Assembly (NCBI GenBank): GCA_937128475.1
Contig: CAKZML010000294.1
Location: 1 to 36,633 of the forward strand
Direction: 5' to 3'
From: an uncultured Chromatiales bacterium
GTDB taxonomy: Bacteria; Pseudomonadota; Gammaproteobacteria; Steroidobacterales; BM003
DNA length: 36,633 nt
The position numbers were made by a program, and so were the translations under genes. Of the stretch, positions 21,357 through 25,934 are shown piece after piece (positions within the stretch are counted from its first letter, which is position 1; each line of letters starts with the position of its first letter). Below the pieces are notes generated by a model. That model was given only the letters and a program-made list of their open reading frames with translations, searched no databases and had not been told where the DNA came from.

Positions 21357-24300
21357 TCAGGGCTGAACATTGTCAGCACCATCTTCTTTTTCCTTCGCGG
21401 AATTTCCAAGGAAGTCTCTCAGGCTTTGCTTGAAGTACACAGGGTCAGAGGAATAACCGCACAGGGCAAGCAGTCGCTGAACCAGTATTTCCTGGTCCTG
21501 CAAAACCGGCTCTGGTGCTGCCAGTTGCGCTTGCCCGGGTGCAGCAACGGCGCTTTGCTGGTCCGCACTCGGTGCCGAGCCGGGACGCGTTGCGCGGGCT
21601 TTGAGCACTTGCCACTGTGACAGGGCCTGCTCACAGGCATGCACCATTTCCGAAGACACTTTTGCGTAAATCTTTTTCTTTCCTGAGTCCTGCAAGCAAA
21701 TATACGCTGCCAGGCCGGCACGAGATTTCTCATCCATAGCCAGGTAGGCGCTCAGCGGCCGCATGTCATCACTGAGTTGAGCCTTGCGCAGCAGCTTGAA
21801 ATGCTTCTTGAAACGCAGTTGATGCACGGCCCAATCGGCTACGGTCAACACTACCTTCACGGTTTCAAGGCTGCCACTGCCATCCCGAATTTCGAAAGTA
21901 TGCCCAGCCCAGTCCGCATCCAGTTCAGGATTGCCCTGGATTGACAGGGGAGATTCAGCATTCGCCGGATCATAACTGAACAGGGGAATTGCACGGCTAC
22001 CCAGTGCAAGACTGGCGTCCTCGGCCACTTCCTCGCCGGACAGGCCGTTGGCCATCGGGTCAGGGGTATAGATTCTCAGCAGGGACGGTCCCTTGCTTGC
22101 CAGGGCATTCACCACGCCACGAATGAGGTGGCCCGGGTGTCCGGTTGAAGCCTGGAGTACAAATGAGCTTCCCTGGTTCACTGCCTGGGTTGCATAGGAA
22201 ACTGCAGAACGTGCCGCTTCGCCTGCGTCCAGGGTGATTCCATGGCTGTCCAGGAGAACCATGCTGATAGGCATCTGGCTGGCCAGGATTCGACTGATGT
22301 CGTCCCAGTGAGCGCCTTCGGCTTCGGCCACCATGACTACCGGCGCCAGCAAGGATTGTTCGTCTTGATCCAGATCACTCCAGTCCAGGCTTGATTCCAG
22401 GTCTTCATGTCGTAGGCGGTCAAAATCACCTTTAATCTCAGTTTCAGCCAGGCGGCAGATGGCCAGTTCCTGGGTCAGGCGCCGTGACATGCCCTGGAAT
22501 AATCCCTCGGCCAGAGCGGGGGCTTCGCCGCGGTCATGACTGAGCCAGGGGTTCGCGTGGGGGTTGTCGGGATAGCTGCCGCTCCAAAGGGTGACGCCAC
22601 CTTGCTGCAGGGCCAGTACCATCTTGGCGCGTCCGGCCTGGTAACTGGCTAACTGTTCTTCCAGATCGAACATCAGCGAATTCAGGCGCTCCATGCGGCC
22701 CTTGTCCAGACCCTCACCCAGGCTGTCTTTACCCAGTGCCTGGGCAATGTCCTCACCGGCCAGTTTTGCTTTATCCAGGGCACGCAGGCGGTTTGCGAAA
22801 GAATCGAAATCGCTGATCTTCAGCACTCCGGAGAGCTGATCCTGGATGGCGTTCTGCACCCGCTGTAACAAATCAGTCAGGTAGGCCTCATGGACCTGGT
22901 AGCGTGCCTGCATTACTGAATCCACTGCAGCGGATACCAGGTGAACGGCTGTCTTGCCAGGGTGCCCGGGCAGGGCGCTGTCACCGCCGACCATGGACAT
23001 GTAACTGCTGCGATTAAGCAAGCGAGCCATTTCGCTGTCCAGGTCGTCTTCACGAATAAATTGTGCTATTTGATCGGGAGATACCTCGGGCATCTGCAAC
23101 TGCAGGGCGACACTGTTCGAGCCACGCTGGATGCGTTCCGGGGTCTGTTTTTCCCAGGTCATGGCGCCGTCAGGGCAGACAGCCACGCACAGGCCACAGG
23201 CTTTGCAGTTAACCGGGTTTACTGCCAGTGACAGCAATTTCCCTTCGCCCTTGTCTGCGCTGTCGAAGTAGCGCTCGCTACGGGCGATAGGCATACGTTC
23301 CAGGCGCTTCTGCAGGTGATCAAAATCGTCGGCGATGGCCTGCAGCGCTTCGCCCTCCAGGCCCATCTTACGGGTCAGTTGCTGGAAGGCCTCGGCCAGT
23401 AGCGGTCCGGCCATGGTGTACTGGTGTAGCTCATCTTTAGAAACCAGCTTGTAGGCCTGGGTCGCCAGGTGTCCGGCGATACGGGTCAGCTGAGTCATTG
23501 CCTGGCCATCGGCCTTGCAAAGCCGCACACCAGTTTCAACCAGGCTCTCCACACTTTGGACGGTGGGCGGCAAGGCGGAATCCGGGCAATGTGACCAGCA
23601 CAATCCACAGGCCGTGCAATTCTCTGCCAGCCAGCGGGGCAGGGTGATCCGGTAGGAACTCATGTCCCGGTGAGCACTGCTGCGTGCGGGCATCACACCG
23701 GTTGCGAGGAAAGGATCAATGAGTGTTTGATCCTGGTCGCCGGAGTCGAACAGGAAACCTACCGAATGCCAGAAACGTGTCGGGTCAAAGAGGTCTTCGA
23801 CGACACCGGATTTGGATTTGGCCGTCCAGGGTGCCTTGCGCTCAATCTCAGGCGCACGGGGCTCGTCATTGAATTCCTGCCAGTCCAGCTGACGCGACTC
23901 GTCTTCACCGCGAACTACAGAGGCGAGAATATCAGCGGCGGTAAGTTGATCGCCTTCCATCAGGCGTTTGAGTAAATCCTCCAGCGCATGCTCGACAGCA
24001 TTGCGTGAGGACTCTTCAGGTTGGACCTGCTTCAGCGCGGAACCAAGCAGAGCCCAGATCGACAGTTGATCAAGATGCCCAGGGCCTTGGCCCGTGGTGG
24101 TGGCGATCGCTCTGGCATCGATTACCTGGACGTTCAGCTTTCTTTTCTTGATCAGGTCGACAACCCGGCGGGGAAGGGCACGCCACAGTTGGTCGGGATC
24201 CTGGGTTGTCGAGACAATTAGTGTGCCGCCTTCGCGCACGGCATCCGCAGGGATGTCTTGCAGCAGGTTGGCGCCGGCCACCAGCAATACATCTGCGGCC

Positions 24301-25934: not shown

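Follow-up and report, generated by a model that had tools for sequence, protein, structure and literature searches.

A catalytically inactive pyruvate:ferredoxin oxidoreductase as a probable electron-transferring adaptor between KorAB and the Rnf complex

The single-chain pyruvate:ferredoxin oxidoreductases (PFORs; NifJ, TIGR02176), with known structures from D. africanus (1b0p) and M. thermoacetica (6cin), are in both sequence and structure the best match of the protein described here, and their domain order, I, II, III, V (with two ferredoxin-type clusters) and VI, is the same. Unlike them, the protein has no TPP site, no catalytic Glu and no proximal cluster, and its gene is located in an rnf operon; we refer to it as the dead PFOR (dPFOR). 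A comparable case is NuoG of respiratory complex I, a redox enzyme whose active site was lost and whose Fe-S chain is the reason for its retention within an ion pump, although its fold and its donor enzyme are unrelated to those of the dead PFOR. Two other described systems come together at the locus. The operon's KorA and KorB align over most of their length, and with motifs intact, with the 2-oxoglutarate:ferredoxin oxidoreductase (OGOR) of the M. marinus 6n2n type; unlike that enzyme, they come with the dPFOR and with P812, an 812-residue protein described below, and are embedded with rnf. The Rnf complex, in turn, is known from A. woodii, A. vinelandii and C. tetanomorphum, and the genes for all six of its subunits, RnfABCDGE, are found in the operon as well. 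As described in PMC11889175, RnfB accepts electrons from ferredoxin, these travel on through RnfAE, G and D until RnfC passes them to NAD+ while ions are transported, and the complex is reversible; excerpts of a 2025 review and a structure paper (PMC12174285, PMC11889175) mention no PFOR-like, KorAB or P812 component of Rnf. Searches of the open-licence literature turned up no account of inactive PFORs encoded in rnf operons, and an earlier description elsewhere is possible. The parts are known, their combination seems unrecognised, and an enzyme appears to have been repurposed.

The window, by which we mean the whole stretch of 36,633 nucleotides analysed, from an uncultured Chromatiales bacterium, contains an operon of ten genes in the order korA-korB-p812-rnfB-[dead PFOR]-rnfC-D-G-E-A, the dead PFOR being gene five (Table 1). 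Uncertain start codons aside, neighbours overlap or are separated by gaps of at most about 35 bases, and the end of rnfB, stop included, shares 14 nt with the beginning of the dead-PFOR gene. The true start of KorA is probably downstream of the listed TTG and that of RnfG nearer to 18955, its homologues beginning near residue 66. The genes rnfABCDGE are present together, all six subunits scoring above or near the family cut-offs. KorA has an intact YPITP motif and the M. marinus OGOR 6n2n_A as its closest PDB chain (7e-80); KorB retains WCPGCGD and GDGD...NN and reaches 244 bits with TIGR02177, slightly under the cut-off of 262. By these motifs, and with solved 2-oxoacid and 2-oxoglutarate oxidoreductases as its closest matches, KorAB has the look of an intact 2-oxoglutarate:ferredoxin oxidoreductase. 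Also encoded in the genome are a canonical PFOR and the E1 component of 2-oxoglutarate dehydrogenase (sucA), so the KorAB-Rnf system is not the sole route and the idea of the dPFOR as a stand-in for a missing enzyme was rejected; a second rnfC is found on contig C123. Elsewhere in the window, genes for malate synthase, isocitrate lyase and isocitrate dehydrogenase stand in a row at 6175-10512 (+), with some 6.5 kb or more between them and the point where the rnf operon ends.

Table 1. Operon genes and protein regions discussed in the text, in window coordinates
Feature	Coordinates	Strand	Evidence or remark
KorA, 2-oxoacid:acceptor oxidoreductase subunit alpha, gamma and alpha fused	30273..32231	(-)	TIGR03710 513 bits, above cut-off
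KorB, TPP- and [4Fe-4S]-binding beta subunit	29267..30250	(-)	PF02775 6e-25; PDB 5b46_B 1.8e-52
P812 (812 aa), truncated and degenerate PFOR paralogue, ferredoxin tethered at the C-terminus	26821..29259	(-)	Fer4_13 3e-8
P812 ferredoxin tail, residues 735-812	26824..27057	(-)	
RnfB	25921..26799	(-)	PF04060 and RnfB-type NCBIfam models
Dead PFOR, 1525 aa	21357..25934	(-)	ORF 25934..21357, PFOR homologue
Degenerate domain I of dead PFOR, residues 78-254	25173..25703	(-)	POR_N 1e-20, 1b0p alignment; retains the equivalent of Arg114, has lost those of T31 and E64
First ferredoxin-type motif CTACGLCWSHCP, residues 773-784	23583..23618	(-)	
Second ferredoxin-type motif CKACGLCVAVCP, residues 910-921	23172..23207	(-)	
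Degenerate domain VI of dead PFOR, residues ~950-1448	21591..23087	(-)	No TPP motif, proximal-cluster Cys or ferredoxin tail behind it
RnfC	19989..21323	(-)	TIGR01945 532 bits
RnfD	18955..19992	(-)	TIGR01946 316 bits
RnfG	18221..19135	(-)	FMN_bind 2e-14
RnfE	17617..18258	(-)	TIGR01948 237 bits
RnfA	17039..17620	(-)	TIGR01943 237 bits

A first-pass annotation, made from the letters of the window, had placed the dead PFOR correctly without naming its strand, and every motif that it quoted is found in the translation. The homology to PFOR that it proposed is far above chance: Pfam gives POR_N at 1e-20, PFOR_II at 6e-12 and POR at 2e-8, phmmer against solved PFORs finds PDB 1b0p at 1.7e-27, and the NCBIfam model TIGR02176/NifJ scores 162 bits without reaching the family cut-off of 911, the Pfam and NCBIfam homology spanning domains I, II, III and V. 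For the C-terminal half, a profile pooled from dead and intact relatives finds PFOR domain VI (6cin, 3.8e-44). The structure prediction that the annotation had recommended was carried out for residues 725-1525 (801 aa), giving an AlphaFold2 model with pLDDT 82 and a best E of 3e-12 against PFOR structures; the fit is loose, with TM 0.35-0.44 and an rmsd of about 8-11 A over a multidomain alignment. As the 18 best PDB matches of this model are all PFORs, the C-terminal half is, by prediction, the equivalent of PFOR domain VI, with the PFOR fold kept. A PX-domain match in the dead PFOR fell below the cut-off and was disregarded.

For the comparison of residues, in D. africanus numbering, the protein was aligned with canonical PFORs from related genomes. 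In agreement with the first-pass reading, the TPP site is lost, the equivalents of T31, E64, D963 and N996 all being substituted or absent, and likewise that of E817, while the proximal [4Fe-4S] cysteines C812, C815, C840 and C1071 have no equivalents. Equally as described there, the Arg of domain I (the R114 equivalent, within SRCKQRH) is kept, and the two ferredoxin-type motifs are intact, with 8/8 of the Cys ligands of the medial and distal clusters. A proximal cluster supplied by other residues was looked for at the sequence level: no replacement set of cysteines was seen, and nowhere in the dead clade does a Cys stand at a proximal position, the C812 position being Glu in 120/120 and the C815 and C1071 positions Ser in 119/120 sequences of a second subgroup. 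One could still think of a divergent yet active 2-oxoacid oxidoreductase whose rearranged active site uses other TPP ligands and no proximal cluster; it would agree with the retained PFOR fold, with the Arg114 equivalent often kept among dead forms and with the D963-equivalent Asp that is still there in 99/120 of the second subgroup. Against it, the equivalents of T31, E64, N996, C812, C815, C840 and C1071 are lost together across the clade, and, of the nine catalytic and proximal residues, 0-3 are left in each of the 120 sequences and none in the window protein. On the residues lost, we rejected this reading as highly improbable.

All eight cluster cysteines are kept in 50/52 dead relatives, and full sets are found in 120/120 of the sequences from the second-subgroup search, although the two sets may overlap. 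For the window gene, dN/dS calculated from one genome pair is 0.086 overall, with the lowest value of the protein in the ferredoxin region (0.044) and 0.091 in the dead domain VI. The degenerate motifs are what a pseudogene or an assembly artefact would show, but the open frame of 1525 codons and the low dN/dS rule out a pseudogene, and the protein is kept across many independent assemblies and phyla in one ancient clade, leaving such an explanation next to no probability. Because of the dN/dS and the retained cysteines, we regard the dead PFOR as a maintained gene, to judge from its substitutions under strong purifying selection.

The operon appears to hold a second relic of the same kind. 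P812 had no annotation besides its C-terminal ferredoxin, and in hhalign nearly its full length aligns, with probability 100, onto the C-terminal half of the dPFOR (Rnf-linked PFOR) family; in this profile comparison P812 lacks the domain-V cluster motifs and has none of the TPP and proximal residues. Its AlphaFold2 model (pLDDT 84.6) has PFOR and ferredoxin I (1fxr) as top PDB matches and terminates with a ferredoxin fold (target TM 0.84 for 1fxr), whose C741, C744, C747 and C783 are invariant in 62 sequences and which is preceded by a flexible or disordered linker (residues 686-727, pLDDT <50). The matches of the model to PFOR structures are significant but have low TM-scores (0.17-0.21), so that the PFOR assignment rests mainly on the profile comparison, by which P812 is a second, truncated dead PFOR with a tethered ferredoxin. 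A protein search found >140 relatives of P812, and at two loci (L036, L037) korA-korB-p812 is present with no rnf nearby. A gene of ~330 aa between korB and rnfB in Gemmatimonadota matches P812 weakly, at 25-42 bits.

Relatives of the dead PFOR were drawn from protein databases, from order- and class-level genomes and from a scan of 85,488 species genomes, in which the best 80 of 233 relatives were taken. A complete or almost complete catalytic set is found in 87 relatives, canonical outgroups uncounted, and these usually have a C-terminal ferredoxin domain of their own; it is lost in 52, and one row is intermediate. Dead and intact Rnf-linked forms both sit between rnfB and rnfC, and they have in common an insert of ~80 aa between the cluster motifs, before the second one (CKACGLCVAVCP), that canonical PFOR lacks. 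The operon korA-korB-p812-rnfB-dPFOR-rnfCDGEA is conserved in Chromatiales, other Gammaproteobacteria, Latescibacterota and Calditrichota; the intact sister clade, from Gemmatimonadota, Acidobacteriota, Rokubacteria and others, has in the rnfB-rnfC slot a PFOR that carries a ferredoxin tail itself. Dead operons have the ferredoxin tail on P812, and intact operons, a few truncated or exceptional cases aside, have it on the PFOR: a PFOR tail is absent from the dead proteins except L071 and present in nearly all complete intact ones. The exceptions include L101, intact without a tail, and Acidobacteria with a separate, divergent korAB-P812-like set, and the tails of L095, L130 and L133 are of CSxC type. 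Among dead loci holding rnfB, P812 with a ferredoxin tail is found at 16/17 and Kor genes at 15/17, counts that are not independent because some loci represent the same genome twice; Kor genes are present at about half of the intact loci holding rnfB, and the Rhodothermales locus L081 has P812 and dPFOR with no adjacent korAB. In three genomes (G008, G424, G289), an rnf operon with an intact PFOR is found as well as a korAB-rnf operon with a dead one, and the two types are therefore not simple substitutes.

Intact PFOR-ferredoxin fusions occupy the rnfB-rnfC slot at L066, L068, L069, L072, L105, L111, L118, L121 and other loci, with korA-korB and a ~330-aa P812-like fragment often upstream; apparently, these fusions are undescribed as well. 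At another locus, an ApbE (flavin transferase) gene lies beside korA, between the korAB set and rnfB (L077:7794-9023), and two loci (L175:6582-10207, L176:9030-12736) have a stand-alone, two-gene split PFOR-like pair of about 660 and 530 aa, outside rnf operons and with ITP and GDG motifs intact.

In three relatives, the genes for both succinyl-CoA synthetase subunits, sucC and sucD, are inserted between the dead PFOR and rnfC (L165:6191-8238, by protein identity the Solemya pervernicosa symbiont; L169:5679-7733; L174:12607-14669). Their position inside the operon points KorAB to 2-oxoglutarate and succinyl-CoA, and it is on this, the best evidence, together with an OGOR as the closest PDB chain to KorA, that we infer 2-oxoglutarate as the substrate.

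The origin of the dead form was traced in two trees, a 148-row FastTree and a 49-row mixture-model tree with the active-site columns removed. In both, nearly all dead forms make up one clade, sister to the intact forms, the 49-row tree giving SH-aLRT values of 94 for the dead and 91 for the intact clade. One Rokubacteria protein (L071:4819-11337) is nested among intact Rokubacteria with support 100 in the 49-row tree; it has lost the TPP and proximal residues, lies beside korAB and keeps its ferredoxin tail, and by this placement is an independent loss of catalysis, more recent than that of the dead clade. A third independent inactivation is probable in Gemmatimonadetes (L122:580-5757, a single MAG contig), where the TPP loop and motifs are gone and the proximal cysteines kept; in L063 of Calditrichota, relics of GDG and TGGQ remain. 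On these relationships, the dead PFOR would be a catalytically inactive descendant of an Rnf-linked PFOR, with the intact relatives showing how it arose, and the intact PFOR, L122, L071 and the full dead clade would form a natural graded series from enzyme to wire.

With its active site lost, its Fe-S wires kept and its slot between KorAB and Rnf, the dead PFOR probably carries electrons, or docks the enzyme, between the two. The first-pass annotation had taken it for an enzyme repurposed as an electron conduit or scaffold without reference to the operon; that reading still fits an operon with KorAB, a tethered ferredoxin and the Rnf acceptor, and the clade-wide loss of catalysis, the retained cluster ligands, the purifying selection and the operon support it. 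More specifically, we favour, with a probability of roughly 0.6, an electron-transferring adaptor that couples KorAB directly to Rnf and makes of them an ion-pumping or, reversed, ion-driven 2-oxoglutarate oxidoreductase. KorAB would oxidise 2-oxoglutarate to succinyl-CoA, and electrons would pass from the KorB cluster to the swinging P812 ferredoxin, on to the pair of [4Fe-4S] clusters in the dead PFOR, then into RnfB, and from there via RnfAE, G, D and C to NAD+, with export of Na+ or H+; run in reverse, NADH and the ion gradient would drive the reductive carboxylation of succinyl-CoA. The dPFOR and P812 give the impression of two degenerate copies of a single PFOR that complement each other, the wire kept in one and the ferredoxin in the other, and they may form a pseudo-dimer that docks KorAB on Rnf.

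The main rival is pure scaffolding, with the dead PFOR docking KorAB and P812 on RnfB/RnfC, its clusters being structural and electrons going from KorB through the P812 ferredoxin to RnfB. P812 does have its own ferredoxin on a flexible linker, RnfB takes ferredoxin electrons in known complexes (PMC11889175), and two dead PFORs, P0053 and, by alignment, P0064, have lost ferredoxin-type cluster ligands too, which would argue that the protein can be retained without full clusters and favours scaffolding in those cases. Elsewhere in the dead sets, however, the eight cysteines are kept at the frequencies given above while other functional residues are lost, and dN/dS is lower in the ferredoxin region than elsewhere in the protein. 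Of the functional features that remain, the cluster ligands are conserved best, and for this reason we favour a conduit and consider scaffolding alone unlikely. KorAB could instead reduce a free ferredoxin.

The direction of the coupling can be questioned too. The operon might work in reverse only, gradient and NADH supporting a CO2-fixing synthesis of 2-oxoglutarate and the dPFOR feeding electrons from Rnf to KorAB. Rnf is reversible (PMC11889175), and the relatives include sulfur-oxidising symbionts and large sulfur bacteria, groups where a case has been made for a reverse TCA cycle (PMC6315080). In the window's genome, however, RuBisCO found no match, on which grounds autotrophy by the reverse TCA cycle was rejected there, and the window's isocitrate lyase, malate synthase and isocitrate dehydrogenase look more like heterotrophic acetate use; we find a reverse-only device improbable.

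Taken more widely, the electron-transferring adaptor would be part of an unrecognised energy-conserving "2-oxoacid oxidoreductase-Rnf" supercomplex of several phyla, in which electrons from 2-oxoglutarate (through KorAB) or a 2-oxoacid (through the intact PFOR) enter Rnf via tethered clusters, without free ferredoxin, and whose built-in PFOR lost catalysis once in an ancient clade and again in one or more later lineages, surviving as the wire of KorAB; for this generalisation we see about even odds. P0293, named "pyruvate ferredoxin oxidoreductase [endosymbiont of Riftia pachyptila]", belongs to the dead clade, with the proximal Cys lost and the cluster Cys kept at 8/8. We infer that it is the unexplained "PFOR-like" gene for which PMC11636981, the nearest mention that we found, reports a drop in expression in the Riftia symbiont along with a dimeric korAB; the excerpts of that study treat it as a possible enzyme and mention neither inactivation nor a link to Rnf.

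Names of this kind on some dead PFOR genes might be counted as pyruvate metabolism, and the annotation would be corrected in tubeworm and Solemya symbionts, Thiomargarita and Parabeggiatoa. The oxidation of 2-oxoglutarate is usually carried out by a dehydrogenase that conserves only NADH. If our reading is true, this step of the TCA cycle becomes ion-pumping, and the operon could pump ions out or draw on the gradient for CO2 fixation; low-potential electrons held inside the complex would suit oxygen-exposed organisms.
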